This document shows positions 16,860 to 64,000 of a stretch of DNA of 64,000 nt, piece after piece; the stretch's first letter is position 1, and each line of letters opens with the position of its first letter. The position numbers and the translations under genes were made by a program. This stretch comes from Ulva prolifera (taxonomy: Eukaryota > Chlorophyta > Ulvophyceae > Ulvales > Ulvaceae): the NCBI GenBank assembly GCA_023078555.1, contig CM041201.1, forward strand, positions 3,541,713 to 3,605,712, given 5' to 3'. The notes below the pieces were generated by a model. The model made no database searches. It saw nothing but the letters and a program-made list of their open reading frames with translations, and had not been told where the DNA came from.

Positions 16860-17505
16860 GTTAGCATTGACGGGTCTTCAGCTTCGCACATGCTGCATCA
16901 CGGTCGGTGTCTCGGGCGGACTCCTGTGTACATCCCTGTCGCAGCGTGCGCTGGCTGAAGCCGGAGATGCGGAATCATGCTGAACTGAAAGGCGGGCCAG
17001 CGCGATGTGAGAGCAGCAATGGCAAGGTACACGTCAAATATTGCCAGATTGCAGACTCGCGCCTTACGGTCGAGGATACCTGAGCGAAACGAACGTGCAC
17101 CTCTCGGCGAACAGCAGCACGCAGGCAGCAGATAGCTCAGATCGGGCGTTGAAAATTACTCCTAGACGACCACAAGTAGCTCTTCCAGATAATCGAGGAC
17201 TTCATCCATGCATGACTCGATTCGATTACACGGTGTCTGACAGCATGGCACCTTTAGCTGTGAGGGAAGAGTGCATCAGAGCTCGCGTTATGTTCGTCAA
17301 CATGATGTCAGCATACGTCTGGTTCTCATGTTCTGCGACATCCTCCGGAGAGCTAAACTCATATGCGGCGGCAGTCTCTCTTCTCTGTACGCGTACAAAA
17401 CATATATCACGCGTGGCTACGGAGCCTTGCAGCTGTTGGATTCTTGGGGCTAGTGCCAGCTACGGTGTTGACAGGATGTCGCAGAAGTAGCAACACAGCA
17501 ACCGC

Positions 17506-17576
17506 TGGTTGCGGGGTGTGCGATTCCCCTGGTTGTGGCTCGCGGTGCTACCTGCCTTGCTTGCCTTGTCCTTGTG
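17506..17576 (+). mobile_element. 5'-truncated short retroposon copy (71 bases)
   Basis: The insert is flanked by an exact 13-base direct repeat, ACACAGCAACCGC, at 17493-17505 and 17577-17589. The 3' part reads GCGGTGCTACCTGCC then CTTGCCTTGTCCTTGTG, matching the tail shared by the other copies in this window. There is no poly(A). Read as a non-LTR-type insertion by target-primed reverse transcription. Confidence 0.75.
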
Positions 17577-17739
17577 ACACAGCAACCGCGCGCACCACAA
17601 GAAGTTGAACACTGCACACGCAACGCACCGCCGGGACTCCAAACAAGACGTCCCCCCAGACACGGCAGCGCGCCAACACCACCCGCGCACACCAAAATCT
17701 CCATACTTGTCCTTGTACCACATTTGCCCACTGGCTGTG

Positions 17740-17797
17740 GTCGCATTCTTGCGATGCTCGCTGTGGTGTTGCCTGCCTCGCCGCCTTGGTCCTGGTC
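17740..17797 (+). mobile_element. Probable retroposon fragment without a clear target-site duplication
   Basis: The sequence GTTGCCTGCCTCGCCGCC followed by TTGGTCCTGGTCACAC is a diverged match to the shared 3' end of the family. The flanks are CA-rich and I found no convincing direct repeat, so its left edge is a guess. It may be an older copy. A second tail-like string, CTTGTCCTTGTACCAC, lies at about 17705. Confidence 0.35.
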
Positions 17798-18984
17798 ACA
17801 CAAACACCCGCCCACACATGCATGCACACACCCCACACTGCGGCACGCACTCAGAGACTTACGCCGCACGCGCGGATGGGGTGGCAAAGCACCACTACAC
17901 AATGGCACGCACACACAACGCTGTGTCCGGCCACCGCCGGGCACAGAAGGTGCAGGGGGAGCCCACCACCCACACTCAGACCCCCTTCTTCCCCCACATC
18001 CATGCCACCAAGCAGAGCCACCCCTCAGAGGCCAGTGAATCACCAACATCCCCACCACGTAGCACGCCAACCCTCCCGACAACACCACGGCACGTCATGA
18101 CCATGCCACTGCCAGGACGCCCCGACCTCAGGCAAGGCGCGCACCACCATCGCCACCCACAGCGCAGAGCTGCGTAGCCGGGCAGTGGAATGCTCCGGGA
18201 GGCGGCGCAGGGCGGGCGGAGCAGGGCGGCCCGCCGCCAGGCCAGATGGCCAGCGAGCGGGGCGAGGTTGTCGGAGGTGACCGCGAGTCCCATTACAATC
18301 TGCTGGGTGTGTGTTTTGGGGTGCAAGCATGTTGATGTTTATGAAGTGGTGTGGGTGCGCTGGGTTCTGCTTGTACGGGGTGCGGGTTGCTGTACACGGT
18401 GGTGGTGCCCGGCGGGTGCCTGTTCACCAGCTTGTTCACCACAGCGTCTGCAAATTTCCTCGGCTGGGATGGGATAAACACATGCAGCAGCTTGCTCAAG
18501 ACTGACAGTATCCATTGTTGTGGTCAGTGCGGCCTCATTTGGTCAGGACTTGTGGCAATTCAGTATTGTGCATGCCTACCTCCCACACCCAGCGGCCAGC
18601 CTCACAGCTGTGCAGGACATGATTCTGAAGCCCACGCCAGGGGGGCAGGGGCAAGGCTACAGCGTGCATGGGCAGATATGAATTGCATTGCAGGAGAGGA
18701 CAGCCGGGAATGGCGTTGCAGTCTACGGAGATCGTTCTTGTGGGGGTGGTCGCCGTGGCTGTTCTGTGGTCAATCCAGCATATTGGACATGATAGCTGCT
18801 GTCAAGATCATGGACTGCCGCCACTCATTGGAAGTGGGTGCCTGTCTGCCTGCCTGCGCCCTTCTGATCATCGTCGGCGGATTAGGTCGTTACCTGAGAA
18901 AAGTGGATCGCATGCATGGCTGTGCTGTCGACCAAACAGGCTTTGTCCATGTAGAACACCATCTCCACATCACACACAGCTGTG

Positions 18985-19237
18985 TTTGTTTGCTGGGCGG
19001 CCTTGGCTGCTTGTGCTTCCGGGGCTCGTGCGCCTTGCTGTTGGGCGGGGTTCGGGTGGGGATGGGCGTGTGGGCATGGGCGTGTGTGTGGTTGTGTGGC
19101 CGTGTCGCTGTATCCGGCGCGGGTGCTGCCGTTGCGTGGGTGTTTTGGTGTGCGCTTCGTGTGGCTTGCTGCGTGGTGTGCGTTGCCCCTGCTTCTTGCT
19201 TGCGGTGCTACCTGCCTCGCTTGCTTTGTCCTTGTAA
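18985..19237 (+). mobile_element. Short retroposon copy (253 bases) with 14-base target duplication
   Basis: An exact direct repeat, CACACACAGCTGTG, occurs at 18971-18984 and 19238-19251. The insert is G/T-rich and ends GCGGTGCTACCTGCCTCGC, then TTGCTTTGTCCTTGTAA immediately before the repeat. The tail contains TGTAA, the green-algal poly(A) signal, but no poly(A) follows. It is the second-longest clearly delimited copy. Confidence 0.8.
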
Positions 19238-19626
19238 CACACACAGCTGTGACTAATGGAGGTGAATTGACCGCATGCACACCGCAGTAGCACCACAGGG
19301 GCGCAGATACCAGCGCAGCAACTACGACTTGGATTTACATTGCGCATCGTTCCACTAAGGCTTTGGAGGAGAGTAACAGTCAGTTATGAGTACACTGAAT
19401 TTAAAATGTTATTATTTGAATCAAGCTGTGGTGGGTTCTACCACCGGTATCTCATTCACCAGCTGCTATACTGGAAACAACAGTTTTTATTCATGCCCCA
19501 TAAGGCTAGAGGCAGCTCTGACCTCTCCACGCACAGGCTCTGCTCCTGTGCAGTGCTCTCACCACAGCAGGCCCTGCGGACACTCGTGCACATACCAAAG
19601 CGGCTGTATGCCGGCACAACTGTGAT

Positions 19627-22074
19627 TCACGCACAGCAGGCATCTGCAGCGGCCCTGGCTTCACTGCAAGCATCTTTACCTGGTGCCTCATGCCCAGGCA
19701 GTTCCAAAGCAGTTGACTCATTGCTGTCAGGGAACGCAAACACAGCCAGGTGTTCCCCAAATGGCTTCTGCAGACGGAACTGCCGCATGTGCATGTCAAT
19801 AGACACGTGGTCCTCTGCATGCGAGAGGATTCTTGCATCGTCGTGAGGCTCCATCTCCATGATGCTGGGAGCCCAGGGCTGCAGCGAGTCTGTCACAGGC
19901 AAGAGATCCTCCACAAAGGAGAAGTGCTCCTGCCCCAAGGGGGCGTCTACCCAGTACGAGTTGGCAAGCATCCGGACTTTGAACTTGTGACCCTTGTAGG
20001 CACAGTCAGTGTACTGCCTCAGTGGCGGTCCCGTGGGCTGCAGAGACCTGGATTCTTGCTTCCGAGCAAAGTCGAACACAGGCAGTACCAGGCCTGCAAG
20101 GATAGGTAGACTATGCAGAGGTTGACGAGATCTGTGCCACGAGCACGTGCACAGCAAAAGCGGCAACAGGAGATTGGGAGCATTCTGCTCCACAGGCCTG
20201 TGTCCGGTCTTGAGGCATGCAAGCAGTTTTGAGACACATTCTGGAAGCAAAGCAGATGTGGAACGTGATGTGCACCTGGCGCATATCTATACTCCTGTTT
20301 GTGCAGGATTTTGCTCAGAGCCCCGCGCTGCCGCGCCGCAGGTCCACGTGGCATCAGGTACTCGTTCACCTGCATGGATGCCTTTGCATTGGGACACTCG
20401 TGACGATCTGCGGGTGCAGGCCTTTTGCGGCTGAAAGCTGGCAGGGTGAAGGCAGGTGGCAGCAACAGGTGGAAGCAACAGCAAAGTCCAGTCGAGGAGG
20501 TGCCCGGCGCATAGCGCAGGTGTGTGGCACAGAAGCTGAGTAGAAACCGGCATAGATGTTCTTCAAAGGCAACCTCACTCCTGACAGGTGTCTACACCTG
20601 TCGCACAGACTCGAACATTCAGACGCCCATGTGGAAGCTGCGCATGCATGCATGTCACTTTGCAATGTGGCGAGTCTGTGCCCTCAGGTGAGTGCGTCAA
20701 TTGGCCTATGCCACAAACATCAGCTGGTGCTCACGCATTCTCGCAGGCTATCATACGCCTAGTCTCCTCTGAACACTCTCCATACGCTGGGCAGCAGATG
20801 TGATCCTACTGAATACCTTTGTCTACATGTTCGAATTTGGCACAAGTAGGGATGTCAAATGCATGAAAGGCCTTGTTCAGCTCAGCATGTGTCTGAGTGC
20901 ATTCATCACATGCAAGTGCACTGGCGTGGCAATGGCACAAACACATGGCAAGTAGCGATCCCACAGTTCCTACGTCCGCACGAGGCCGTACCTTCAAGTA
21001 CGACAGGAAGTTGAATGTTTGCCGAAGCTCACTGATGCACTGCTCCCGCACGAGTTCAGAGTCTAGGTCACCACTGGGAGCTGCGTCAAGCTTCCGCCAT
21101 TGCAGAAACGCCTGGTGGCGTGCGGCATACTTGGTAAATGTGTCTGTTTTGAAGGCAGGTAGGCTGCTGTTGGTGAACATGAGCATTCGTGCCACCCCAA
21201 TGTACCTGCATCGCATCCCCAGGCACTCTGCGGACCACACCAAGCTACATCCATCGCCCCATGCAGCTAGCTGGTACCCTGCGCAGACGGCCCATTTCTT
21301 GTTGCAGTGCTAGACCACATCTCCAAGCACGCCGCGACATCCCTCGGATCCATGGTAGATTGTGGACATATCACACATTCACCACATTGGTGCCATGCGA
21401 AAACCCACCGGTGAGTCTGTTGAAGGCCCCTGCCAAGAACGCGGGTCCTCGATGACACAACCTCAGTCTGACTTCTGGTTTCATCCTGATCACCAGTGCA
21501 GCCAACGGCACCCGCCAGCAGCGGACGTCAGATCCTATTGTGCGGGTCCCCACGATACACCTGAGCAGCCACAGTTGTCATCGCAATTTAAAGCACACCT
21601 ATGATGATCAAGCCATTCTCGGAGCGCCTCCTCACGTGTGTGTCCATCCCAAACAGCGCACACTGCAGAGGTGCCAGTGAAGTTCGCGCCAAAGGGGTGA
21701 GCCCGTGTCGTGTCCAACGCCTTGCCACGGCTCAGGCCCAGGTCTGCGAGGCTCGGGACGTCTGCCGCCGAGAGGCGGGTCACCGGAGCGCTCGCCGCGA
21801 CGCGGCGGCGCCGCAGCCGCGGCAGCGGAGGCCACGGCTCGCCGTTGCTTCCTCGGCAGCACTCGTGGACGATGCCTGTCAGAGCCATGCATGTGGGGTG
21901 CTCAAATGTGGACCTGCGGTGGGAAGACCCTGTGTTGCAGGACGCCAACGCACCAGCCGCAGGCCACGCGGACGGACGGTCCACCATGCAGAGGACCACA
22001 AAAACCCACAGCCTCCAGATCTCTGCGAGTGTCAGAGAGCGCCTCCAAATGCCGATCAGTGTATGCCAGCCCAA
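19627..22074 (-). CDS. Divergent GT92-like glycosyltransferase
   Basis: The first exon (about 22074-21602) has a hydrophobic N-terminal stretch and the motif AVCAVWDGHTREEALREWL followed by DHHR. This is the N-terminal signature of the GT92 (DUF23) family (C-x-V-K/R-x-E...EWLxYH). The next exon starts at about 21206 with RYIGVARMLMFTNSS, the counterpart of the family's LGVxHFYLYDNNS. The intron falls inside the same Arg codon as in the neighbour at 22576-24790, which supports paralogy. Downstream exons at about 20992, 20588-20500, 20465-20150 and 20120-19627 are in plausible frames but diverged. I did not see the DxD segment or the HHY segment found in the neighbour. The first ATG is unclear because the upstream reading frame lacks one before the hydrophobic stretch. 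Likely a Golgi type II membrane enzyme, possibly no longer catalytic. Confidence 0.5.
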
Positions 22075-22575
22075 TAAAATCAGCTGTGCCTCAACAGCAC
22101 AGCCGTGCCATGTGTGCCGTGGTGGCCCAGCCCATTCTGTGCGGTGATTACCCCCAGCTGTTCCTATTTCCTCACAGTTCCCCGTGCCAGTGTGTTGCGA
22201 GGCTGCTGCATCACAGCAGCGTTACGTCCGCAGCGCAGTGATCCGTTCCAGCCACGCCCCACGCCCCATACAGCATGCTGGTCAGCACCGTGGCCGGTTC
22301 AATGGCAGCATAGCTGTAGCATGGTGTGTGCTGCATAGAATACAATCCCAGGACTTGCCAGGTAAGCAGGGCCTCTCGAGCACGCAGAGGCCGTGCACTG
22401 GCGTCACCATCGGTGAAAAGGTGCGACTGCGCTCCAAGCAGGCTTGGACCACCTCGGCACACGCCAGCACTGGGGCACGGCCGGTGCGGCGCGCTGTGCA
22501 GCAGGGAAGCAGGCACACCCAAGCCACAAACCACGAAGCCCCTTGGAGGGCCACAATGCATGTCCCACAAGGTGA

Positions 22576-26831: not shown

Positions 26832-28782
26832 TTAAGTGTCTCCTCTCACGTATGCTTCAAGGATGCCCTGGAAGTTATCTGCGGTGAGGTCCCCATGGAG
26901 GGGCATGTCGAGGGGGAGCGCGTCTGGGTGGATCTCCGGCAGCTGCTCCTCAAGGCACGCCTGCAGCTCGGCAAAGACGGCGGCGTTGCCTGCGTCGCTG
27001 AGGTGGAGGCCGTCCGACAACAGCTGCTGCCACTGCGGCCGCGCCTGCAGCTGTGTCCACAGGTCCACCACCGGCACCCCCTCCGCCGCAGCCACCTACA
27101 CGTGTGACGCGCACAGTCAGCCGCGCAGCGACCCGCCGGTGCGATCGCAGGCCGGAAAACACGCCGGGGGTGTCCCCACATGGGATATGAGAGCGGCCCG
27201 AGAGGGGGCCGCACGGGCAGACGGGCTGTGTGCGGATCGCACCTCTGCTTGCTGGAGACAATCGGATAAAAACAACACGCCAGGTTGTCGTGTTCGGACA
27301 CGACAACAGGAACCATCCAGACGGGTAGATTTCGGGTCGGCTGGGGCAGTACCTCCGCGCACGCGGCGGCGTATTGCCCTGTGTTGGCGTTGGAGCGCTC
27401 CGCTGTGTCCCGCGCCGCGGCCCCGTGCAGCTCCTTGTTGTACGCGACGCGCGCGGCCTCGTCCACGGGCGGAGGTGTGATGAGCACTACGTGGCGCGCC
27501 CCGGCGCGACGCGCCGCGGTCACAAGGGCTGCGATGTTGCGGCGGAAGTCCGCAAGGGCCACGTATTGGCGGCTGGAGGTGCCGTCCGGGAGGACCGCAT
27601 CGTTGGCACCGAGGAAGATGGTGACGAGGAGCGCGTCTGGCACAAGCAGCTGCATGGCAGTGTCCACGGTCAGGTTGCGAGTGAAGCTTGGTGGGCAGAC
27701 TCGGCGAGAGTATGTAGTCATGATTGGTGAGGGATCGTGTTATTGGGTTTTGGGGAGTCGAGTAGTGGGGCTGCTGGAGGTCTGCTGACCTGCGGTGGAG
27801 CTGGCATTGCGCTGCTTGTTGATACTGTGGCTCTGCGTGAGAAGCACAGAGCGAGCGAGGCAGGTAGCACCGCCGCGGGAAACAACCAGGGGACCTCAGA
27901 CCTTCGAAATCAGCAACACGCAGCATGGACCAACACATCTATGGCTCTGTGTGGAGTGTGGGCATGATGTAGTTGACCAGCAAGCTGCACATTGAGGTGC
28001 TCCTGTGGCGAGCACATGCTGCGATCTGGACCAGCCTTTCAGAGGATCGTCATGTCCGTTGCCTGTGGGTGCTACTTCGTGCAGTTTGGAGCGATCACGG
28101 GCTTAAGACGTGTTACTACAGGGCGTGTCAGTGCGCTGGGTGCCGAGGGTAGTTCCTGCAGTGATCATTCCTGCCACTCGACCTTGACTGCAATCGACGG
28201 CACGCCATCAGGTGCAAGCCACATGCCAGAGATGCAGAAAGTGATGTGGCTGTATCGTTGTGTGCCTGTATCCACAAGGTGCAAGGGCAATCTGCACGGC
28301 CGGAGGTTACGGAGGGGGTGGACTGATGAGGCTGCATGAACTGAGGCGCCATTGGTGCAGAAAATGACGAGCTGCCGCCTGAAATGATCGCTGTGGCTGA
28401 GCAGAAGGTCTACTGACCGCTTATGTTTGTAGGGCGTTGTGCGTTCATAGGCCGCTGGAAGGTTGTTTTGCAGGGCACTGCGGGCTGGTGTTACTCGTGG
28501 AAAAAATTTGACCATAATGAGAAGCGAGGTGCACTACACTCTCGACCGGATAACAGAAAGGCAGCATTGCAATCTCCGCAAGTAGCGGAGGCTTACCTTG
28601 TTCACGGCTTGTAGTATCCATGAGCTGTTGTAGCCACTGAATCCTCTGTTGACCACGTCTGCTCTGCGCATGTAGTGCTGTGCAAGCAGATTACCCCAGC
28701 CACCTGGGCGAAATGCCCACTGTGTTATGCTATCTCCCAAAAGCAGGATTTTTGGCCGCAGCTCCAGTGTTGGCTCGCCCAT
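26832..28782 (-). CDS. IAH1: IAH1-like GDSL esterase
   Basis: SGNH/GDSL hydrolase of the isoamyl acetate-hydrolysing esterase group, which cleaves short-chain esters. ATG at 28782 gives MGEPTLELRPKILLLGDSIT. GDS holds the catalytic Ser, followed by GWGNLLAQHYMRRADVVNRG and FSGYNSSW. Exon 1 ends at AVNK before GTAAGC (about 28592). Exon 2 starts after CAG at 27649 with LLVPDALLVTIFLGANDA (oxyanion Asn block) and runs to a GTACTG donor near 27354. Exon 3 starts after TAG at 27097 with VAAAEGVPVVDLW and contains SDGLHLSDAGN, the catalytic Asp-x-x-His block. The frame is kept at both junctions, so the enzyme looks complete and about the usual length. Intron 1 (about 940 bases) contains a retroposon copy at 27840-27941 in the same orientation as the gene. 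Confidence 0.9.
27840..27941 (-). mobile_element. Diverged retroposon copy in IAH1 intron 1 (102 bases)
   Basis: The near-identical repeats TGGCTCTGCGTG (27828-27839) and TGGCTCTGTGTG (27942-27953) flank the insert, with one mismatch in 12. Read on the minus strand, the 3' end is GGTGCTACCTGCCTCGCTCGC followed by a diverged tail. Its mutations suggest an older copy than the one at 35236. It lies wholly within the intron and should be removed by splicing. Confidence 0.6.
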
Positions 28783-29459
28783 GTGTCTGTAGATGGCACT
28801 GTTCAGGTTCACTCTCCGATGCTGGCCAGGTAGGCCTACAACAATCAAATTTATGCCTTTGGAAAAACGCGCATTCACAAAGGAATTTCCATGGCTACGC
28901 AGGGACAATGCTGCGCCTGATCGATGGCATCCGTGCTCAAGGCGCTCCGGCACAGCATGCAGGCAGATCATTGGCGTCTCACAAAAACACCATCAAGAGA
29001 CAGGACCAACGCAGGTGACGACGCAGATTGCTCACATCAGCAGATTTCGTTACGCGCTGCCTCTCGGTACGTGTGCGCAGGTGACTCAAGAGACCTTCAT
29101 GTCGCGTAGAGACCGGCATGGTCCCCGGGTGTCGCTGTACTTCGACTGACGATCAGTCAGCCACAGCTGGCTCCAATTCCGTTACTGCAACCACTGAACA
29201 TAGCCACAGCGGCTGGCCTGTTCCTGCTCCCGCCCCCACCCCCCTCCGGATCAGGCACTGCCAGTGGCCGCTTGAATTGGTTCAGCAGCGGCAGACTTGG
29301 TGGTCGTCTCCCGGTCTAGACGCACCAACGGGATGCGACCATGCATAGGGTGCACGGGCAGTAGGGCCACATACGCAGGGCGGAAGTTGTCGTCGAGGCA
29401 CATACCCTGCGCTAACTTAAGGGGCTGGGGAGTCCTGTGTGGACCTTGCACATGCCCAC

Positions 29460-29480
29460 GCGGCCTTTGTCATTGTAACG
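29460..29480 (+). mobile_element. Possible 21-base remnant insertion of the retroposon tail
   Basis: GCGGCCTTTGTCATTGTAACG lies between two copies of CATGCCCAC (29451-29459 and 29481-29489). The insert resembles only the last part of the family's 3' end (CCTTTGTCCTTGTAAC) with one change. With so little sequence, coincidence is possible. Confidence 0.35.
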
Positions 29481-29774
29481 CATGCCCACACGTGCGGGCC
29501 CAGACACCTGGAACCCACGCCGGTTCCATCTCGGGGGCAGCCATCCCCAGCATGCAACACTCCGGCACTCGCGACGAGTCCGCATGCCGCAGCTGTTCGT
29601 GGCAGCGGCGGATCGCCGCCTGCGCCACAAGTTGCGTACGGTTGCCTGAGGACAGTTTCCAGGTGAGGCACCCCGTCGGCATGTGGCATCGTTCGTGCAG
29701 AGTTGTCAATGTCCTCTCAAGGGTACGGATACGTGAATCCAGATGTACTTTGAAAGTGCCCCCCCGCCCCCCCC

Positions 29775-29818: not shown

Positions 29819-30974
29819 TGACGGCTGTGATCGCACACTGCACCCACGGCTGTACACATGCACACACCATCGCTCCTGCTCCCTGCTTCAGCTTCAGCTT
29901 CAGCGAGTTCGGCCCTGTGGCAACCACTTCGCCGTGCAACGATCCATCGGTACAGCGGTCATATCACTGCTTTGCCGCAGGCCTCACGCCACGCGTCTAG
30001 AAGCACCGCTACCTAGCTGCACCTGCAAAGGGCGCAACCCCTTTCTTTCGCTCGACATGGCGAAGGCCCCCCGGTCTGGACCAGCTGGCTCATCGCCTAC
30101 TACTGGTGGCCCTGCCTCCTGGGTTTCAGGTAGTCTATACCTGGGATGCATGGCAGGGCAGAAAATGTGGAAGCACCTTCTGCCTGCCGCAGGGCAGCGT
30201 AGCACTCCCGCACTGCATGCCTGAGTCGATCAATTCATGAGTCGACTCATTGATAAGTTTGCTGGAATCTTGGCTGGGGTGGCCCGGGGGGCTGTGTTGT
30301 TGAGAGCTTGGCGCGGAACAAGGCCGCACTGTTGGCTGTTCTATGCGACTCAGTGGTCTGTGCGTCGTGGTGGTAGGTGTCTGCCTGCATGTGTTGTAGT
30401 TGCTTGTATGGAGTACACCCATGCGTTGGCTGGCTGAGCGGATGCCCTTTGCAAGTCCTGCCCCCCGAGCCGCCCCCTTCCCCCGCCCCCAACACAATAC
30501 ATTGGCCACCTCAAGTCTGAGGCCTGTGCTGACAATGCAGGACTACAGCAGCGCCCCCACATCATGTCATGCATCTACCCTCCATGTGCGTTCACCAAAG
30601 CGGTGCCTTTCGGCTTGTTGAGCTATCACATGCACGGCGGCTGTCTCGCCGGAGCCACAAAGCTGAACGTCCCGTCGAATTCAGTGCGGAATCTTCCTCG
30701 AATGAGCTAATGTGAGGGCAGGTAGATGCCTGGAGGCCTTGTGGGTGTGTCATGATGCCCGATTGCTTATCCTCGCTACCTGTGTGTACAGCCAGGAGTA
30801 GCGCATGCCAGAGGCAGTTGTACATAATGCATCTGCTCAACATCAGGAGTGGTCAGAGGCGTGCCCGTGGCCACAACACTGTGACACGTGCTGCATCACT
30901 GCAGCGTCCAGGCCGTGACTGCAAGAACACGCTCTGTCTCGGATCCTGGAGCTGTCAATGTCCCTGTGGGTACA

Positions 30975-31125
30975 AGGACAAAGGCAGCAAGGCGGGCAGC
31001 ACCGCGAAAGTAGCAAGCAGACGAAGCAAACACCAAGACACCCACGCACATCTCACCCATCACCGGCGCAGCAAGCGACACAGATCCGCAGACCGCCAGG
31101 CTCACACCCACACACCAGCACACAC
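30975..31125 (-). mobile_element. Short retroposon copy (151 bases), subfamily A
   Basis: Flanked by an exact 9-base repeat, GTGGGTACA, at 30966-30974 and 31126-31134. On the plus strand the insert begins AGGACAAAGGCAGCAAGGCG, then GGCAGCACCGCGAAAG. It continues with the CA-rich body, including CACCGGCGCAGCAAGCGACA, shared with the 35236-35559 copy. The sense strand is minus. Confidence 0.75.
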
Positions 31126-31950
31126 GTGGGTACATATGTGTCTGGCAACCAACACCCACGAGGCAACCGCCCACTTAAATGTCCCCAACACGTGTCCATT
31201 CTGGCATATGTTGGTGTCTGGCATTCAGGATCCTGTATAATGCGAAGTTGGGAGACAGGCGCTGGGGTTTCCGGCCGGGCCCACCCACAAGACGCTCACC
31301 CCCAGATCTGGCTCACTCACAGCATGGGCCATCGAGACCCCTCACAGCACCTGAAACACCCATCAACAAACATTACTAATGTGACATTAGCGGTGTCTAC
31401 AATATGTCTACGCACCTATCAGCACCCAAAGGACATGGGAATAGCATTAGATCAAGCTTTACACACTCAACACGGAAGTTGCCATATGGCATACCCGCAA
31501 ACGGCTCACCCACTTATCTGGCCCACCTGGATGAGCACAAAGTGGCATAGGCCCTGCGATTGACACATATGCATGCGTATAAACTTATGTTTGAAAGCAG
31601 GCTGTCTTCCCAAGACCCAAAAAAATTCCTAGACCCGCCTCAGACTTTCAAAGCACCCTCACTGTCCACACGCGGTGTCAACCAGACTGCATGCAGGGCT
31701 CGGCCATGCAATCTGCTACGCCAGCTTGACTTATTCACGATCTCTGTGAGGCGATGTTCCTCGTCGCATGTTGCACCGCTGATCTAGAAATCTCGAATCA
31801 GATCTTCTATGCCTCACGTGTTGTTTCGCAATGCAATTACGCCACCGAAATCTCGTGAGCACTGCTTCTATGCATGTAGCCAAGTTTATCGCTCCCCCCG
31901 GGACCCTCAGGCCACACACAATCTGGATGCTGGCCTTGTATGGGCAGCGC

Positions 31951-33685: not shown

Positions 33686-34853
33686 GGTGGAGCCTTGTTT
33701 GCTATTCGTGCAACCGCAGAACGTGACCAGGCGCACAGATGCGCTCAGGCATAAGCGTGATCCACATCTGCCAATATTACTTTTCCTAACAGCTTTTCGA
33801 GGTGATCATCCAGAGCTTACTGTTCTATACAGTCCAGGAGCGCTAGGCGAACTTCCGTACACAGCACGTTGTCATGTAATCAGGTGTCCATGCGATCGTC
33901 ATACGCCGAGGTAGCGGCACAATGTACACATCTGATATGCAGATGCTGAGTCTGAGCGCTTACGGGGCGTGCACACAGCTATGACAGTTCGCATGTCCTC
34001 GGGCATGGTGTCATGGTTGCGTGCCGAACTGCAGACAGGCGTCGTCAGTCCGAAACTCCTTGGCACGTGCCAACACCTCCGACTGCCACATTGGCAGTCT
34101 GGTCTAGATGTTCCAAATTTGGCCGAGACCGCCAATCTGAACGCCTCCATTGCAACAGCTGTTGTTACGGCGCGCCAATCGAGGGACATTTTCGAATTCG
34201 GCTGGTCAGCACCTAGGCTGCGATCACTCCACCTGGGATCGAACCCGCAGTGTGTTACACAGGCAGCAAGGCCGGCAGCACCGCGAAAGAAGCAAACAGA
34301 CGAAGCAAACACGAACCCGACACGAACCCGCAGTGTGCACATGCCTTTGGCCGATGACTGTGCAATCAGGCGTGTGTTTGATGCAGTTCTTGTCGGCACT
34401 AACACTGCATGCCTGCACGTGCTCACAGTGGTGTCTGCACTCTGCTCCGATGATCCACATTCTCCAGCACAGCTCACGTAGTGCTCAAGTCCGGTGTCAC
34501 ATCACAACCAACGAACTGCTAAGCAGGCTATAGTGGCACCCGCTTTTGCATCTCGTCCCTGGTCTTGTTGCCAATGCGTATGCCATGTTGGTAATCTGAT
34601 GTTCGATGTGTGGCCTTGCTCCTCGCAGCGTCTGCTCCTGATGTACACGCAAACGCCGACGGAGACGAGGCAGCAAGGCATAGTGCGCCCACAGTCCCCT
34701 CAACAAGCCGCAAGCAGAGCAGCTGCCGCTTGCATAGGTCTCAGGAAGTGCCATGGCATGTCTTGTTTGTGTTGTGCTGGTCTAGGTACTCGCCCCGCCC
34801 AGCATGTACGCCCCCACCGCTGAGCCTGTGGGTGCGCGGCTGTGCTGGGTATC
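33686..34853. other. Intergenic region with one retroposon copy
   Basis: Upstream of the glycosyltransferase-like gene. It contains the 68-base insertion at 34255-34322. Short frames on both strands show no recognisable motif. Confidence 0.5.
34255..34322 (-). mobile_element. 5'-truncated retroposon copy (68 bases) with 15-base target duplication
   Basis: An exact 15-base repeat, CGAACCCGCAGTGTG, occurs at 34240-34254 and 34323-34337. On the plus strand the insert is TTACACAGGCAGCAAGGCCG, then GCAGCACCGCGAAAGAAGC and a short stretch shared with the other subfamily A copies. In the sense orientation it ends ...GCCTGTGTAA just before CACACTG. Confidence 0.8.
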
Positions 34854-35207: not shown

Positions 35208-35235
35208 ATTCAGAGCACGAGACTGAGAGTTATGT

Positions 35236-35559
35236 GTCACAAGGACAAAGGCAGCAAGGCGGGCAGCACCGCGAAAGAAGCAAGCAGACGAAGCAGCAAA
35301 CACCAAGACACCCACGCCCGCGACACCCACCACACCCAGAAAACCCATCACCGGCGCAGCAAACGACACAGATCTGCAGACCGCCAAGCACACACCCACA
35401 CACCCATACACGCACGCACAGACCCCACGGCCCACATACAACAACACAACCACCCACACCACAACGCCCGCCGCCGTACGACAGGGCCACGCCCAACACA
35501 CCGCTGCCTGAGGCCGCCCCTCATGGCCGCCCGATTGCCGGGGGCTGCCCCAGCCCCAA
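35236..35559 (-). mobile_element. Longest delimited retroposon copy (324 bases), subfamily A
   Basis: An exact 14-base repeat, ACTGAGAGTTATGT, occurs at 35222-35235 and 35560-35573. On the plus strand the insert begins GTCACAAGGACAAAGGCAGC, runs through a CA-rich body (ACCCACAC-type repeats) and ends GGGGGCTGCCCCAGCCCCAA. Read in the sense (minus) direction it starts TTGGGGCTGGGGCAGCCCCC and finishes GCGGTGCTGCCCGCCTTGC, TGCCTTTGTCCTTGTGAC. No poly(A), no tRNA-type B box and no coding domain were seen. It may be a SINE or the 3' end of an unseen LINE. Confidence 0.85.
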
Positions 35560-36605
35560 ACTGAGAGTTATGTATGTGGTCGACAGCGCAAGACTAGCAA
35601 GCTACCAGCGCCAGTCATTCTGAGACTTCATGGCGATCAGCAGATACGCCATGTGTGCACTCTGTGCAGCACAAGTTGCGAGTACAAGCTTGGCAGACTC
35701 GAGATCTCGGTATCATTCAAGACAGGCCTCAACGCACTCAGTCCACTGCAGCACATTCTGAAACTGACAATACTGGAATCCATGGGGCTGCAACACAGAT
35801 CATGCTACCGGAGGGTGCTCTCCTTGGTGCGCCTGATAGTCAAGTGTACAATGCTCAGTAACGGGAGCACTGGCAGCGTGCATGAGGGGCCACAGTGTTA
35901 TCAAGTCGTGCCGGTGTCATCCACCTTAACACCTGCAAGTCACTCGGCTCATACTAGCTTTGCAAGGCACTGCACTTCACAGTGCTTGTTGTTACAGGCA
36001 CCAGAGGGCATCAGCAAAAACATTGCAATGGATATATTCGCAATCGATGCTGCAGAAACTGAGCCCTGGACCATTGCAGCAGCCGCACAGAAGAGGCGAA
36101 GTGGGTGGTGCAGCTACGTGTGATGGCGGCTACTGCTCAGCAGTCAAGCCTGCTCGACCACAAGGCCACAAGGGTGCATCTCTGGCACGTGCATCACATG
36201 ACATAAAGAATTTGGGATCGCCTGCAGGCCTAGGGCCTATGCTCATATGGCAGCCTAGGGCCTATGCGCGTATGGCCATGGTGACTCGCTACAGGCTAAC
36301 GCAGCTGCTCAGGCCAAGCCACAGCACAATGCTCCTGTCCCTCAACCAGCTCCACTCCCACCACGCACATGCATGGCTGCTGCCATGTTGTGTTGCTGCC
36401 TGTTCTCTTGCAAGGCGGCTGACGTGTCAGGCTTTCTTGCAGAGAATCTGAAATAAGTCTGTGTGCACTACAACCAGCCCAGGCAGCTGCAACACGTGGA
36501 GGACAACAATTTGACAACAGGAACTGGTGTTGTATCTATCAATGAGTTGCATGTGCATTACCGTCCACATGATCCCATTTTCACAGGTTTGCGCGATATG
36601 GTGTG

Positions 36606-36676
36606 TTAAAAGGACAAAGGCAGCAAGGCGGGCAGCACCGCGAAAGAAGCAAGCAGACGAAGCTAACACCCAGACA
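36606..36676 (-). mobile_element. 5'-truncated retroposon copy (71 bases), subfamily A
   Basis: An exact 10-base repeat, ATATGGTGTG, occurs at 36596-36605 and 36677-36686. On the plus strand the insert starts TTAAAAGGACAAAGGCAGCA, then AGGCGGGCAGCACCGCG, identical over most of its length to the start of the 35236-35559 copy. Near-identity suggests recent activity. Confidence 0.8.
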
Positions 36677-36698
36677 ATATGGTGTGCACCCGATGATA

Positions 36699-36714: not shown

Positions 36715-37020
36715 CCCGGGCGGGCCGGGCTTGGGTTTGGGGATTGGAGGCCCGGGTGTACGGGTGAGCGGGGTAGTGTGCGGGTGACGGGCAGGGTGGG
36801 TTGTGTTGGGGGAGCTTGGGCCTGCTCAGGATTGTTGTAGGTGTCTCTGTGTTTGGCTTTGCAATTGCAGCCGGGGCTGCGAGTGCTTCCGGGGCTCTGG
36901 GGCCGGCGTGTGGGATTTTGAAGTGTGCAAGTGGGGGTGGCCGTGAGGGTGTGATCATGCATGGATGTGGGTTATGGGGGGTGTGTGTGTGTGTGTGGAC
37001 ACAGCCACACACACGCCCGT

Positions 37021-37654
<634 letters not shown>

Positions 37655-49246: not shown

Positions 49247-52200
49247 ATGAAGCTTGCTTTTGAGATCAGTTCGGCGTTCTTCGGGCAAAATCCTTTATTA
49301 ACTGCCTGGGGGTGTAAAGGTGTTCTACTGGCGGTTGCACAGGCCAAACGGCAAATTCTGCTGCTCGGGCATGATGGTCAGGAGCAGCACAGCTTCAACT
49401 TGGACATGCCCAACGTGAAGTCTGCCCTGACCCAGAGTGGCCCGGCCGCTCGTGCCCTGCAATGGTGCCCTCAAGGTACGTGGTGCTGCGATGTTGCCCA
49501 GCCAGCCCACATGTAAGTAGTGGCACGCGCTATTGTGGGTCATATGGAGCGACCGAGACCAAGAGGAGCACCACCGCAAAAGAGCTGCAGCGACCAGGCA
49601 ATGCCGCAAAGACGCACGCAGGATGCAGGTGCTACCTTGGCCGTCCTTCCTGCAGCATCCGACTTCCTTTTCATCTGGGAGTCGTCTTCCAAGCGTGCCG
49701 CCAAAATTGCCTTGGGCCCACACATTCCACAGCAAGAAATGATGGCTGCGGGCTGGTCAGCAGATGGTGCACGCTTGACCATTGGCACCAGTAAAGGAAC
49801 CATCCTGGTTTTGGACATGTACACACGCAGGGTCCTGCACAACTTTCCAGGCATCCATGAACAGGTGGGTGGTCTCAGATTCCCCCATTTCGTCTATTCG
49901 TCTGTGGCATGGGTGCCATATATCACGTCACTCTCGGTGCAGGCGGTGTCATGTGTGCTTCTCAGTGGCGACATCATTTGCACCACAGGAGAGGACAGCA
50001 AAGTGAATCTGATGACCACATCAGGCTCTGCTGTAGCCTCTGTCACAATCGATGCCCCTGCTCAAGAGGCACGCTTTGCGCCTGTCAATAATCCCAAAGC
50101 AGCAGCACCAGCAGCGCAACTATCTGTGACTGATGGAAGCTCAGTGTATATATTCAGTACCAAGCTGATGCAGCAAGGAGATACCAAAAAGGGCATGGTT
50201 CAACTTGCATTCGACAACGCAGACCTTGGGCCGGTGCTGCATCACTGCTGGTGTGACACTGCATAACATCCAGCTTTTGTGCTGCTGGTCGATCCTACTT
50301 ATGTTGGCTGCGAAGTACTAGTATCATCCTGATCACAGTGCGGCCAGAATTGATTAATAGCCAATATTGCACCTTGCTGTAGCGACCAAGACTCCACGAT
50401 TTCACGTCCTCCCCCACCCACAGTTTTCACTGCCATCCTTGCACTTCAGGCATTGTATTGCTGCAGGCTTGGGACTGGCGTCATTCTGGTGGCCTTCAAA
50501 GCTGGCTGCCTCAAGCTTGTGTCGACTCTGGAGTCGTCGATGGGTGATCAGCAAGCAATGTTGCAGCTCCCAGGGCCCTGCTCTGCAATAGCAGCATGCC
50601 AGGATGTGACCAGAGTGGCAGTGGCATCTGCATCACAGGTCAGACCACATCTCCTCATTTGCTGCCTTTTCTGCAGAGCTGCCCAGCACGCATTCATTCA
50701 AATGGCAATGCTGTGAGAGTGACATCCCCTTCACCTCCCATGAGGGCCTGTGTGGTCATGCATCGACTGAGCTAGTTTTCACCTTCGTGCCATGAGGCAT
50801 GGCAGCAGGGCAGCTTGGCCGACATTCTGTGCACACTAGGAAGAGCTCGAGTGCAGGTGCGGATTATAAACGTCGGCTCGGACCTTACCGATCTCCCTTC
50901 AGAAGCCCTTAAGCTTGCAGAAAGTAACATTCAGCAGCTGCGCTGGAGCTCAGGAGGGCAGCTGCTCTCCATTTCTACCGCCACAGGTCATCTGTACTGT
51001 GCCCTCGGCTCCCTGCCTGCGGTTGCAGCAGCGGCGGTTGACAGCTATGCGCATCTATCATCCCTCAATCAAGCCACTGTTTGTAAAGCTCTCAGTGGCA
51101 TGCAAACAAAAGTTGCCTTGAAGTTCACACCACACTTCATGGCCCTCGGCCAGACGCACCTCGCAGCAGGCATGAACAACCGGGTACTATTCTACAAGAT
51201 AGATGGCAGCAATAGCGACGAGCCGGTTGTGCGCATGTATGATGAGGGCTCTGTGGAAGCGCTGCACATGAACAGCTCGCTTGTCGCGGCGCTCATGGGC
51301 GGCCGGGTGCTTGTTCATGGCATTGAGGACATGCGGGCGGAGGCCCAGGTGCCGTACCGAGGGCAGGATGTTTCTGCGTTTGCGGTGACAGAGGATTTCA
51401 TTGTCATTGGTACCTCCGGCGGCCTGCTGCAGCACTACAGTGTGAAGCAAGGCCCGCTTGCGCCGCTGAATGAGTACATGCATGAGACCCGAGGAGGGAA
51501 ACGGGCGGGCATCGTCGGAGTGTGGGCAGCGCCTGGAAGTGCCCACCTCGTGTTTGCTGACAACAGCAACAAGGTGCACGTGTTTTCGTGTGTCGATGAC
51601 CAGGTGCGGTCATCCGTTCGGGGCTGTTGGCTCATGGTATCTGTTGTATGGCTTTCCACCCTGTGTGTCGCATGGAATATCATGCCAACTCTGGCTCTGA
51701 ATATGTGGTGGCGTCATCCAACGTCCGACGTGAGTGAAAACGTACTGTCTTCGCCGCCACCATGGCCTGCAGCAGGTACATTGCACAGCGACGATCGCAC
51801 ATGTCAGCACCGCACAACCATGATGCGGCGTGTTGTGTGTAGGTTGTCGTTGTTCCGGACATGATCGGGAGCGTCAAGACGGTGCTATTTGATTCTTTAG
51901 ACCCCAACATCTTTCTCGTCGCGGAGCAGCGAGCGTGGACAGTGCTCGCGTACGCTCCCGTGACCGTGCGCGGGCCCCGGGTGCGGCGCCTGCACGCGAT
52001 GGAGGCCGACCCCTCCGCCCGCCCACTCGTGCTGGCGTCCGGCTGCGTGTTTTCCCAGACAGACACAGGCCAGATCGTCACCCGGGACATCCCGGCGCTG
52101 TCGCCACCTGGTGCTGGTGATGCTACGACCAGTGACTCCGATCTGCTGCAGTGTGCCGCTAGCCTCCACTTGTGCCTTGATGCATCTGACGCACGGTGGG

Positions 52201-57379: not shown

Positions 57380-58154
57380 ATCTGGGCACATCCCGAGTCG
57401 GGAATCCCGACGCATGCTGGCGTGCGCACGTGCACCGGGCGCGGAGGCACGCGGAGCCTATGCGCAACACAGGGACAGACGAACTTCCTCAGCAGTTGCG
57501 GACGGACCGACCATCGACCAAGGTCGGTGCGCATCGATATTACACGTTAGCCGGATATATGCATGACCGTGCATGCACAAGAATGCATATTGTATATGCA
57601 TAGCTTAGTCTTTTTTTCACAGTCCATCAGTCTCTGTGACAGCGGATGATTGTAGCTCAATCAAAACTCGGACCTTCTAAATCATGTCTATTCAGTTTTG
57701 AAATCACCGCCGCAGCCCCCTGCCATGAAGTCAGACTTTTGGCCAAAGCCCTGCCATGAAAGTCAGACATCTGCCGCAGAAGCCGTGTGGCACCACTGAG
57801 CTCGACAACATTGTACAATGGATCAGGCCTGGGGAAGAGGATTTCATACCTGCCCAAGCAGCAGCATGCACACAGGTGGATGCCATGCCATGATGTAATA
57901 CAGGCTGAACAGACTGCATGTAATCTACACAGTGGCCCAGGCCTGAGTCTGAGTCATGATTCTGTCAGCATGTGCTGCCAGATAGACTGTCACAGCATGG
58001 CCCTTCAGGTTGCCCCCATGCATAAGAATTTCAGACCAAAAGCTACAGTGTGCCCACCCACCAGGGGGTCTTCCACTGAAAGATTGCTGAGGACCTCATC
58101 TGGAGATATGCAACACCATCACTGACTACCCCCATCATCACACAGCAACTGGTG

Positions 58155-58276
58155 TGCTGTGCGCTTGTCCTCGTCCGCTTGTCCGCTTGTCCTCGTCCGT
58201 GCTACCGGCCCCTCTGGCTTTGTCCTTGTGTTACAAGGACAAAGGCAGCAAGGCGGCTTTGTCCTTGTGTAACACT
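58155..58276 (+). mobile_element. Retroposon copy (subfamily B) carrying a nested insertion
   Basis: An exact 10-base repeat, GCAACTGGTG, occurs at 58145-58154 and 58277-58286. The insert contains TCCGTGCTACCGGCCCCTCT, GGCTTTGTCCTTGTG, then the 24-base inner insertion and the duplicated tail ending GTGTAACACT. The GCTACCGGCCCCTC block matches the 37021-37534 copy, defining a second subfamily. Confidence 0.75.
58231..58254 (-). mobile_element. 24-base subfamily A insertion nested in another copy's tail
   Basis: An exact 15-base repeat, GGCTTTGTCCTTGTG, occurs at 58216-58230 and 58255-58269. The inserted piece, TTACAAGGACAAAGGCAGCA plus AGGC, is the extreme 3' end of subfamily A in the opposite orientation. 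It is an extreme 5' truncation that still carries a complete target duplication. Confidence 0.7.
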
Positions 58277-58747
58277 GCAACTGGTGCCCTCGTGGATATC
58301 CCCATGGGTAACAGTGCTGCTGTAACTGTCTTCGTAGCTGTGGCTCCTTGTCCTTCACCTCCTGCTGGCTACCACGTCCGGCGCTAGAGCAGCACAAAGC
58401 GCAGACCGATTTCGCGTGACACTGCAGCTCCTATGTGTCCACCAGCTGGGCAGCGTACTAGCTAGCTAGGGCCCACGCCTGCTGCCCATGCACCGCACAG
58501 ATTGCGAACAGGTGGAATCGGACCTTGTGCACACGGTTCACTAGCCGGCCCTGGCGCGGTGGCCACCGCCGAGCAGCTGCCTCATGCCTACAACCCACGA
58601 ACAGGCTGGGAGGGCTGCTGTGCAGGAACTGCGTTGCAAACACTGCTTGCATCCTACACTGCACTGCCCGGCACCCGGCCACAGCTACTCAGAGCTCGTG
58701 CAAGCCAGCCATGCACGCTAGGGCATGAGGCCCGATCATGCTGCAGG

Positions 58748-58777: not shown

Positions 58778-58780
<3 letters not shown>

Positions 58781-60649: not shown

Positions 60650-61904
60650 CGTTTATTAGCCCTTCCTTCCGCTAGGTAAGACAACTCACAGCTGATGCCA
60701 CGGCAAGAGGACAGCTGCGCGGAGGCGAGCTGGCGAAGGCCCAGGATTACAGGATTGGCTACTCCTGTTTCGGAATGAGCTCTTTCATATGAGCCTTGAA
60801 TGAAGAATTCACTTTCGTAGGCGTGTCTACCTCGCAGTGCTGTCCAGAGTCGGGCAATACACTGCCATCAGCGCTTGTGCTGTACCAATATCTAGCAGTG
60901 ATCTTGCGTCTGCAGCCCGGAACCGCTATAAATTGGCATCTCACAGTGCTTGGACAGCAGACGGCAGCAGACAGGCCTACATGCAGGACGGCCCACGTGA
61001 AGCAAAAGGGGCGTACATGCAGCCGAGTGCGTTGCGGGCAAGTTCGCACCAAGGGAACGCGTGTTGTCGCCCAGGCCCGTGCACAGCGACAATGCATGGT
61101 GACGCTGTGGCCTCACCAGCCCGCAACATTGCACCATAAAACTGCAGTTCGGCTTAACTATCCTCCCAATTCCCATCGACGTCCGCGGATCCGGCACCAA
61201 AGCGCATAAACATCCGATCCCAGACTACAGCTGAGACCAATCGCATTCATCTTCCAATGTAAAAGTCAACCGGAATGCAAAAGAAAACACTGCGATGCAC
61301 GACGCAGGAATACGCGATCTGGGCCTGTGTGCACTAGATACAGCGCGGCATACGTGCGTACATCTGACCGCTGTGCTGAGTCATGAGCGTTTCGTTGCCA
61401 GCCATGAACGTTTTGGCAATCCTCACGCAGCTCTGCGTAACCCTCGCCTGACTAGATTGCTTCACAAGTACTCCTCTACATTCCCATCATGTGGCTGAAA
61501 TTCCGTATACAACGGTCTGGAGGAGGACTTGAGCCAAGAGTGGACTAGCTGCAGGGGCTCACCTGCAGGGGAGGCAACTCGGGCGCGTGCACAAGCCGGC
61601 CATGGCGGGGTCATCTCCGCGGGGCGTTGCGTCGCAGCTTCCGGTAGAGATGATTCGCGACACCACGAGCGCCGGGAGGTAACCGTGCCCACGCGCCGGC
61701 ACCGTCGAGCTCAACAGACAGTTTTGCAGAAGTTTCACACATGCCATCCGCGCGGATGAGCGCTGCCATGGCGCACTGGCACTGAACGGCGCCGGCGTAC
61801 GGGGGTGCGATTACAGCGGCCGCACATATGTGCAGTCCATCCATCATGCATGCTACCGACTGACACGCTCGTCATGATCGTACGCCCGGCAAGGCCTGGC
61901 ATCA
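60650..61904. other. Intergenic region, nothing recognised
   Basis: About 1.25 kb without a supported gene. Short frames on both strands lack motifs. It should include the promoter of the 59648-60649 gene and the 3' end of the gene ending at 61905. Confidence 0.5.
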
Positions 61905-62978
61905 TCACGTCCTTGCGCCTGCAAGCCCCTGCATAACCGCACTGGAAACTCTCGCAGCGCCGTCACAATCCAGAGCCCCGCTCTCCCACCACCCCAGAAC
62001 AGCCTCGAAGTCCACATCCGCCGCCACATGCCTCTGCACACCGCCGCAGCTACCACCCGCCGGTGCGGCACCAGATCCTATCCGCTCCTGCAAATCAATT
62101 ACGCGTGCGCAGTCTCTAGAGCGCTTCGAGCGCACTTCACCACCGACGGCGCACGCAGCGCCGCCAGACCCCGCACGACAATCCTCGTCACCGGCACGAC
62201 ATCGATTTTGATGCGCAGCACCCACGGCTGGTGGCGCGGACGGACCATGGCCATCCCCGGCCCTCCACGCATGCGGCTCACTGGCTTCTCTGTCCCACCC
62301 CAGCCGACCCCGTCTCCCTATCCCTGCTGCATGGTCGTCAGTTTCAGCGCAATCCATGGCGTTTGCCGGTGGCAAGCCGCCAACAGAACCTTCAAGCGTG
62401 GACCTGACCGCCGCGCCACCGCTTCCTGCATGTGCGTCCTCTCGCAGCCTTGCAGCCGCATTGCATGCACCCACCGCCGCCTGCACCGGGGGCGCGGCAC
62501 AGTCCGCCCCCACTCCATCTCTGCCTTCAACAACCGCCATCCCCGTGACCTCTTCGCCGCCAATATGCCCATCAACGGCACTTTGGCCCACGGCATGACC
62601 ATGTGCACCATCACGGCCTCCAGTGTTGCCGGCGCCATCAGATGGACTGCCAGCAATGGGTGCTGCAGCGGGGCCGGTGGCCGAAGCCGGGCCCTGCGCA
62701 GATGCATGCACCGCGCCGCGCGCTGCGTGCTGGTAATGCTCTGCACGCTTCGCGCCGTCGATCTGTGCAGGGCTGTCGCGTGTGCGCAGCGGCACGGGCG
62801 TGGGGGCCCCCGTGGCGGTCGGCGGCGGCGGTGCGGAGGCTGCCGCGGCCGGCCGAGGGCCGCTCGAGAAGTAGGCTGCGAGCGGCTTCATCTTGGAACT
62901 CGCAAGCGGCTCGAACTTGGCGGCGCCGACATGCACTTGTACGACGGGCAGGCTCTCGCGGCTCGTCCGCTGCATGTC
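61905..62978 (-). CDS. Last exon of a gene, possibly DNA polymerase eta C-terminal region (partial)
   Basis: An exon opens after GTGTGCAG at 62978 with DMQRTSRESLPVVQVHVGAA, then KFEPLASSKMKPLAAYFSSG. This resembles the end of the little-finger domain of polymerase eta (LTSLxMxATKF...ITSFLSS in the human protein) followed by a PIP-box-like L-x-x-Y-F. A long Ala/Gly-rich linker follows. Then comes RVIDLQ, which looks like a SUMO-interacting core (VIDL), and a segment, GVQRHVAADVDFEAVL, faintly like a ubiquitin-binding zinc finger without its cysteines. Stop at 61905. Polymerase eta bypasses UV lesions. The catalytic exons would lie beyond the right edge of the window, so the assignment rests on one short block. 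The gene could also be another Ala-rich nuclear protein. Confidence 0.4.
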   Translation of the reverse strand, partial: DMQRTSRESLPVVQVHVGAAKFEPLASSKMKPLAAYFSSGPRPAAAASAPPPPTATGAPTPVPLRTRDSPAQIDGAKRAEHYQHAARGAVHASAQGPASATGPAAAPIAGSPSDGAGNTGGRDGAHGHAVGQSAVDGHIGGEEVTGMAVVEGRDGVGADCAAPPVQAAVGACNAAARLREDAHAGSGGAAVRSTLEGSVGGLPPANAMDCAETDDHAAGIGRRGRLGWDREASEPHAWRAGDGHGPSAPPAVGAAHQNRCRAGDEDCRAGSGGAACAVGGEVRSKRSRDCARVIDLQERIGSGAAPAGGSCGGVQRHVAADVDFEAVLGWWESGALDCDGAARVSSAVMQGLAGART

Positions 62979-64000
62979 CTGCACACGCACATGCATTGCG
63001 GGCGAGCCCAGTGTTGTGAAACAGGTTTGCAAGGACGAGTCGCTAAGGCCCCTTGTGGCGGCATTCCGTACAGTCTCCTCTCAGGAACCGCAAGGCAGCA
63101 CAGACAAGCTGCACCGCAGCTGTCACCTGACACACGACATCTCCCAGGCGACTAGCCGCCCATAGCCACCCCCACACAGACATCTCATGTCGCACATTTG
63201 CGAACACTCAGACACATGGTGGCTTTGTTGGGCAGCTGCTAGATCCGTGTGGGTTGATGGCTGTGGCGTAGGTGCACTGCGATTCTGTTCTTGGTGGTTC
63301 CCGGTGGTTCTTAGTCCCTGCGGTGCTACCCACCCCCCCCATCTGTAATTAATGTTATAACATGCATATGCCCATGCGCGGCAGCCGCCTCCGAGACGGC
63401 TCAACATGAGACGGCTCGGCCTCCGGCGAGCCCATACATTGCATTGTGCTCCAGCACGCAACACCCGACCCTCGAGCTCCCCAGGTCCACTCGTGGGGCC
63501 ACGGCTTCTCCACAGCACCGCCGCTCGCTACCGATCATTTCATGAAAGCCCTCACTGCGCGCTGCGTGATGTCAGTGCGGTTCCGCCTGGGACGAACATG
63601 TACCAGGCTACACAGCCACTGACTCGCGGTGATGGGGTGTATGTGGCTGTTGATTTGGATGAGATTCTTTTCTTGTATTTGTCTCCTCCTGTGTACTCTT
63701 TGAAACCACTCTCTTGTAACACAGCCACTGACTGCAGCACGTGCTCTCAGAAGCTGGTTCGTGCTGGAAGGTGGCCTGGCCTTGGTATCTGGGGCCAGAT
63801 AAAATATGGCCAGTGAGGAGTAAGAGCTCATGCATGATGTGTGGCTCAGCGTGAATCAGCCCTGCAGGGCTGCACGCAGCTTGGTGCACCAGTGGCATGT
63901 GTCGATGGATTATCAATCACTCACAAACCCCAACGTATCAATCAGGGTGGCTTTGCCGGCCGCAAGCATTGACGATGGCACGAGTTCGACCAGGCTCGGC
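62979..64000. other. Probable intron or upstream region of the 61905-62978 gene, with one insertion
   Basis: No coding block is convincing. The region contains a 94-base insertion (63625-63718) with a 15-base target duplication. If the polymerase eta reading is right this is intronic, with the rest of the gene to the right of the window. Confidence 0.4.
63625..63718 (+). mobile_element. Different short insertion ending in the same CTTGTAA tail (94 bases)
   Basis: An exact 15-base repeat, ACACAGCCACTGACT, occurs at 63610-63624 and 63719-63733. The body (from CGCGGTGATGGGGTGTATG, with TTCTTTTCTTGTATTTGTC) does not resemble the GC-rich body of the other copies. It still ends CTCTCTTGTAA right before an ACAC target. 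It may be another family mobilised by the same machinery. Confidence 0.7.

Follow-up and report, generated by a model that had tools for sequence, protein, structure and literature searches.

Retroposed fragments in the window

The stretch of DNA analyzed here, referred to as the window, comprises 64,000 nucleotides (nt) of Ulva prolifera contig CM041201.1 (positions 3,541,713 to 3,605,712; assembly GCA_023078555.1). It carries a set of short inserts that share a 3′ end, most of them bounded by direct repeats. These inserts are the subject of this report, together with the long interspersed nuclear elements (LINEs), or non-long-terminal-repeat (non-LTR) retrotransposons, from which they most likely derive. 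Eleven inserts were listed in an initial annotation of the window, each with a pair of flanking repeats. The exact repeats at these pairs, in order of position, measure 13, 14, 8, 9, 9, 15, 14, 10, 10, 16, and 15 nt. Thus, 8 of the 11 are exact repeats of at least 10 nt. Among 3000 pairs of window positions drawn at random, 2 reached this length, 10 reached at least 9 nt, and 57 reached at least 8 nt. These eight are far beyond chance, the two 9-nt pairs are good, and the 8-nt pair at 27828/27942 is weak on its own. The short copies with direct repeats described in the annotation are therefore real. When up to 2 mismatches are allowed, the window contains 11 occurrences of the tail sequence CTTTGTCCTTGTAA, versus 0.24 expected from shuffled sequence.

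The bodies of 9 of the 11 inserts align to the 3′ end or 3′ untranslated region (UTR) of one of three LINE families, termed A, B, and C, at E ≤ 1e-3. At this threshold, two inserts have no alignment to the family references, the one of 21 nt at 29460-29480 and the one at 63610. The annotation held that all eleven copies share the 3′ end. This is too high a count for the full tail, since the insert at 29460-29480 has the last bases only and that at 63610 only TTGTAACACA; the kinship of the other nine stands.

Two family B fragments lie on the forward strand. The first (17506-17576, within 17493..17589) is flanked by a 13-nt target duplication, ACACAGCAACCGC (17493-17505 and 17577-17589); the second (18985-19237, within 18971..19251) has a 14-nt duplication and is 97% identical to the full-length family B element L077 over its last 260 nt. 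An old family B-like fragment on the reverse strand (27828..27949) has the 8-nt repeat only. The 21-nt insert on the forward strand (29451..29489) ends in CTTTGTCATTGTAACG, is flanked by the 9-nt repeat CATGCCCAC, and is too short for family assignment. Four family A fragments follow on the reverse strand: one of about 151 bp at 30966..31134, the 9-nt repeat of which overlaps the TGTA of the tail; one at 34240..34337 with the altered tail GCCTGTGTAACACA and a 15-nt duplication; a 3′ UTR fragment of 324 bp at 35222..35573 with a 14-nt duplication; and a fragment of 71 bp at 36596..36686 with a 10-nt duplication. A 512-bp family C fragment on the reverse strand (37020..37531), which the annotation had missed, is 86% identical to the element L078; its 5′ side adjoins a (CA)n tract, and it has no clear duplication.

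The family C-like tail on the forward strand at 58145..58286 has a 10-nt duplication and is split by a family A insert of 23 nt on the reverse strand (58232-58254, within 58216..58270), which is flanked by a 16-nt duplication and sits at an antisense ACACA within the outer tail; this is a clear nested insertion. The last insert, on the forward strand at 63610..63733, combines a 15-nt duplication, ACACAGCCACTGACT, and the 3′ end TTGTAACACA with an unrelated body, and is left without a family assignment. Its body is part of another dispersed repeat with at least 40 matches including itself (40 of 40 scored; 79 candidates), and the other 39 end before the tail. To judge from these alignments, it may represent another LINE family or an RNA mobilized in trans.

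Parental LINE families

The assembly searched comprises 88.9 Mb in 44 contigs. Two genomic copies, L018 and L031, extend 5′ into the C-terminus of a protein. A query of the 147 C-terminal residues encoded by L018 has at least 150 matches in the genome (150 of 150 scored; 1531 candidates), and open frames of at least 1400 residues hold 9 of the 150 among the matches listed. The full-length LINEs retrieved measure 5.1-5.4 kb and have one open frame each, 1463-1535 residues long when measured from stop to stop. Family B is represented by L077 (frame of 1535 residues, 3′ UTR of 564 nt), family C by L076 and L078 (1531 residues, 566 nt), and family A by L079 (1463 residues, 587 nt). The tail types of the window are the ends of the 3′ UTRs of these families.

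The full-length elements have the same kind of junction as the fragments. L077 measures 5435 bp between 21-nt duplications and L078 measures 5412 bp between 17-nt duplications; L080, which is truncated, measures 4068 bp between 15-nt duplications. A long (CA)n tract surrounds L076 and makes its duplication unreadable; the element is 98.4% identical to L078 along a 5.6-kb alignment. Because several long frames are intact and full-length copies are nearly identical, this LINE group appears to have been recently active. The features that characterize LINEs are all found here, namely an encoded reverse transcriptase (RT), 5′ truncation, a constant 3′ end, and target duplications of variable length. 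The annotation was right that the copies have a constant 3′ end, a variable 5′ end, and no poly(A), and the mechanism it proposed, target-primed reverse transcription with 5′ truncation and without poly(A), is supported. Its proposal of a separate family of very short retroposons is not upheld: the copies represent the 3′ portions of 5-kb LINEs, which share their tail and type of duplication.

In our opinion, the window repeats are 5′-truncated copies of autonomous non-LTR retrotransposons belonging to at least three families, most likely of the restriction-like endonuclease (RLE), or R2-superfamily, type; we put the probability of this reading at roughly 0.87. Five other stretches around matches to the RT model RVT_1 (L069-L073) were considered as parents and rejected, as no tail lies downstream of their RT frames. 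By eye, we would guess that they are LTR-like; the tails in L072 are on the opposite strand and represent separate insertions.

The encoded protein

Identity to the first frame is 68% and 65% for the frames of the other two families. All three contain two Cys/His motifs resembling C2H2 fingers N-terminal of the RT. According to PMC5678591, one or more N-terminal zinc fingers upstream of the RT in a single open reading frame (ORF) define RLE LINEs, and the Ulva frames have this arrangement. The RT itself is diverged, scoring 3.4e-4 (family B) and 1.1e-3 (family C) with Pfam RVT_1, both below the curated cut-off. In a profile search of PDB, R2 is its nearest solved relative (best E 1.7e-7): three of the four matches at E ≤ 1 are R2 proteins, and L1 ORF2p is absent from the four; it should be noted that this proximity is a ranking of profile matches and not a phylogeny. 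The usual RT motif C is aromatic-x-D-D. In the L079, L077, and L076 ORFs this motif is invariantly CHDD.

PMC5678591 also describes RLE LINEs as having a zinc knuckle CX2-3CX7-8HX4C, an RH at the first helix of the endonuclease, and KX2KY as a catalytic motif. The C-terminal RH, D-x12-D, and KX2KY are invariant across the three Ulva families, and a Pro/Ala-rich stretch of about 140-180 residues (by eye) lies between the RH and Asp motifs. On the strength of these motifs, the endonuclease is probably of the restriction-like type. Relatives of the ORF were sought in viral and genome contig sets with two N-terminal peptide patterns each; none was confirmed among 23 and 254 pattern stretches, respectively, which is a weak test.

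The main competing interpretation is that the parents are LINEs of the apurinic/apyrimidinic endonuclease (APE) type, such as green-algal RTEX or L1. Among the 3′ repeats given for green-algal RTEX in Table 3 of PMC3747384 are (CTTGTAA)n and (CA)n, which the tail indeed matches, and an RT scoring below the Pfam cut-off suggests that a diverged APE could be missed as well. We nevertheless consider this interpretation unlikely: no APE model matched at E ≤ 0.1 in the family B and C frames that were scanned, a search of limited sensitivity, and the single frame with N-terminal zinc-finger-like motifs, the nearness of the RT to R2, and the C-terminal RH and KX2KY motifs all favor the RLE type.

Abundance, tail, and truncation

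The tail CTTTGTCCTTGTAACACA has 1126 exact matches in the genome and none in a reversed control; a degenerate 32-base form of the tail has 700 exact matches versus 0 in the reversed control. For a diverged family, such exact counts are lower bounds. The AAAAAA variant of the tail, CTTTGTCCTTGTAAAAAA, has a single exact match; against the 1126 matches above, this means that the elements lack a conventional poly(A) tail. Rfam searches of L077-L080 returned nothing above the gathering score. A Twister-P5 candidate in L078 (21.8 bits versus a gathering score of 37.6; E 1.4), located on the sense strand of the element, about 500 nt downstream of its 5′ end and within the open frame, was taken as a chance match.

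Truncation is extreme, with 24 N-terminal versus at least 150 C-terminal matches versus at least 1126 tails. The N-terminal count (24 matches from 25 candidates genome-wide, two of them overlapping) was obtained with a family B query, which matches families A and C at only about 54-60%. Insert lengths were measured on contig C1, where 28 of the first 30 pattern matches were scored; of the other two, L011 repeats the junction of L009 and L018 is the full-length L077. The 28 copies span 35-798 nt by alignment (median 159). Duplications of at least 9 nt flank 23 of them, and the inserts between these duplications measure 33-800 bp (median 131). The sampling pattern requires the 32-base tail, so shorter stubs are under-counted in these figures.

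Such lengths might suggest an independent SINE-like (short interspersed nuclear element) or very short retroposon family mobilized in trans by a LINE whose tail it shares; 19 of the 28 tail-selected copies are shorter than 200 bp by alignment, and the 63610 insert, though different in body, agrees with them in its last ten bases and type of target. This explanation is, in our estimation, very improbable. The bodies are collinear with the LINE 3′ UTRs, as is true of nine of the eleven in the window, and their 5′ ends fall at many points across the 33-800 nt covered by the 23 duplicated copies. Moreover, there is no sign of a SINE-type 5′ head with a pol III promoter, the window containing no tRNA and no Rfam match at gathering score.

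Target duplications and the CACA site

The fetched genomic DNA contains 81 tails, 71 of them with family support; the duplication test excluded the 10 tails without such support as well as 9 copies with a 5′ end at or close to the limit of the scan, so that 62 copies were scored. With a cut-off of 9 nt, 38 of the 62 are flanked by a duplication; when the 3′ flanks were permuted 200 times, the mean count was 2.4 and the highest 7. The initial annotation had looked to genome-wide duplications and to the constancy of 5′ ends for signs of a DNA transposon or tandem-repeat artifact; the duplications are present, and the 5′ ends of genomic copies vary, so that retroposition is favored. The 1077-bp copy L008 has the longest exact target repeat, which runs to 26 nt or more (lengths were tested up to 26 nt); in the remaining scored copies, the repeats reach 18 nt at most.

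A non-autonomous DNA transposon or tandem-repeat artifact might be suggested by four exact CTTTGTCCTTGTAACACA tails at 39-base spacing (C1:1803766-1803900), possibly a LINE stub expanded into a tandem array, and by the target duplications of about 9-11 nt that some DNA transposons give, but it is refuted by full-length, RT-encoding LINE copies with the same junctions and by a 3′ end that alone is constant while the 5′ ends vary, and its likelihood is negligible.

The old target, as seen in the 5′ copy of the duplication, has C, A, C, and A at positions 2-5 after the tail in 32, 32, 33, and 34 of the 38 sites, respectively, and exact CACA in 25 of the 38, against a background of 0.96% per window position. 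In a stricter test, in which a match beyond position 6 alone was required and ACACA itself could thus not produce it, these bases are found at 20, 21, 20, and 22 of 29 sites. Long (CA)n tracts are sometimes used as sites (L076 and window position 37531). The annotation had already placed ACACA within several duplications and overlooked CACA as a common target motif. Furthermore, 10 of the 38 3′ junctions (one a doubtful row) carry consensus ACACA bases that are missing from the 5′ copy. The simplest reading is that an RNA ending in ...CTTGTAACACA pairs, with some mismatch allowed, with TGTG at the nicked target strand, and this pairing of the target with the RNA end probably primes reverse transcription.

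Other contents of the window

Host genes were sought by a domain scan that covered 10 of the 18 window ORFs of at least 250 residues. It identified a piece of an ion channel on the reverse strand (6939-8162), with a cyclic-nucleotide domain below the cut-off; a piece of a GDSL lipase, also on the reverse strand (26846-27721); and, on the forward strand, a WDR19/IFT144-like propeller of a ciliary protein (50815-51864). The telomere patterns TTTAGGG and TTTTAGGG gave 0 matches each. Elsewhere in the assembly, two RbcS loci on large contigs each occur in two matching pieces, as if split by an intron. These loci and the WDR19-like protein are consistent with a green-lineage organism that bears flagella.

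Discussion

Several observations weigh against the assignment of the window repeats to RLE-type LINEs that insert at CACA. In the protein, the zinc knuckle is an invariant C-x1-C-x8-H-x3-C, the spacing of which departs from the published definition, and the first catalytic Asp lies in GD instead of PD. An AlphaFold model of the C-terminal 392 residues has a pLDDT (predicted local distance difference test) of 34 and is worthless, and a profile search of PDB with the C-terminus found no endonuclease, its one match being a histone (E 0.56). The missing APE match is weaker than it looks because RVT_1 itself scores below its curated cut-off. Diverged N-termini may escape the family B query, which bears on the N-terminal count. 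A candidate conserved 3′ RNA hairpin (GCGG..CYGC) was rejected, as it amounts to merely 4 bp and whole-tail folding gives it no support.

As to the junctions, 24 of the 62 scored copies have no duplication of at least 9 nt. L079 (5090 bp) has a weaker, 9-nt repeat and a 5′ copy without CACA, and the target of L080 reads CACT. The set of 38 sites was partly selected through matches containing ACACA; in the stricter test, exact CACA is found at 14 of 29 sites only (counted from the rows, doubtful rows included), and some of the 10 junction differences may have arisen by later mutation. Finally, the 63610 copy has a different body and is common to the LINE tails only in TTGTAACACA.

Like the RLE LINEs of the R2 superfamily (R2, R4, NeSL including Utopia, HERO, and CRE), the Ulva elements have a single frame, N-terminal zinc-finger-like motifs, an RT nearest to that of R2, and a knuckle-like motif followed by KX2KY. 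Unlike them, they have GD for PD, a Pro/Ala-rich insert of about 140-180 residues, CHDD, more than 1100 dispersed tails, and short CACA sites. Elements of the RTEX type carry an APE, and Dualen/RandI of Chlamydomonas is a green-algal LINE with an RLE that also carries an APE. The Ulva elements are likewise green-algal LINEs; they differ from both types in that no APE was matched in the family B and C frames, within the limited sensitivity of the search. PMC3747384 gives green-algal RTEX 3′ repeats that include (CA)n and (CTTGTAA)n, and RandI repeats of (ATT)n or (CTATTT)n, the latter unlike the Ulva tails. Because of the RTEX repeats, this type of tail has a precedent in green algae, albeit in LINEs of another type. 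L1 and Dualen LINEs are named in relatives of Chlamydomonas in PMC8226300. No report of an RLE LINE in a green alga was found in the open-licence PMC literature by searches that each demanded several terms at once, which supports absence in print only weakly.

With respect to targets, most RLE LINEs are target-specific, and HERO includes many non-specific and some microsatellite-specific families, according to PMC4640811. The same source describes the fish element Togen as (TG)n-specific and related to NeSL, its position being given there as unresolved. Togen thus resembles the Ulva LINEs as an RLE-type LINE using TG/CA sequence; unlike Togen, the Ulva LINEs need no more than a short CACA and use long (CA)n tracts sometimes.

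A mechanism consistent with these data can be proposed. The LINE ribonucleoprotein would nick the antisense strand at TGTG(T), in keeping with the observed target preference, and leave a TGTG 3′ end. The RNA 3′ end would anneal to this TGTG, as supported by the junctions with ACACA bases missing from the target copy. Reverse transcription would then mostly stop within a few hundred bases, giving inserts that are, as observed, typically 20 to 800 nt long and seldom full-length. A second-strand nick downstream would create the duplications found, mostly of 10-18 nt and up to 21 nt in a full-length copy. More tentatively, and with rather more doubt than confidence on our part, the Ulva elements might constitute a distinct green-algal lineage of RLE-only LINEs. 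In such a lineage, a stretch that is probably disordered would interrupt the endonuclease, and the RT would have the altered motif CHDD; site specificity would have given way to an anneal-and-prime rule based on the four bases CACA, with the RNA end doubling as target-pairing sequence, and LINE stubs down to about 20 nt would be left across the genome.

The interest of the finding lies in the parent, probably an RLE LINE whose CACA target is relaxed and whose copies are extremely truncated. For annotators, it implies that repeats of 20-200 bp in such genomes may be LINE stubs and not new SINEs. A dispersed, abundant RLE LINE with a four-base target preference would, if confirmed, illustrate relaxed specificity in nature, and the RNA-target pairing step of priming could be read from its genomic junctions.

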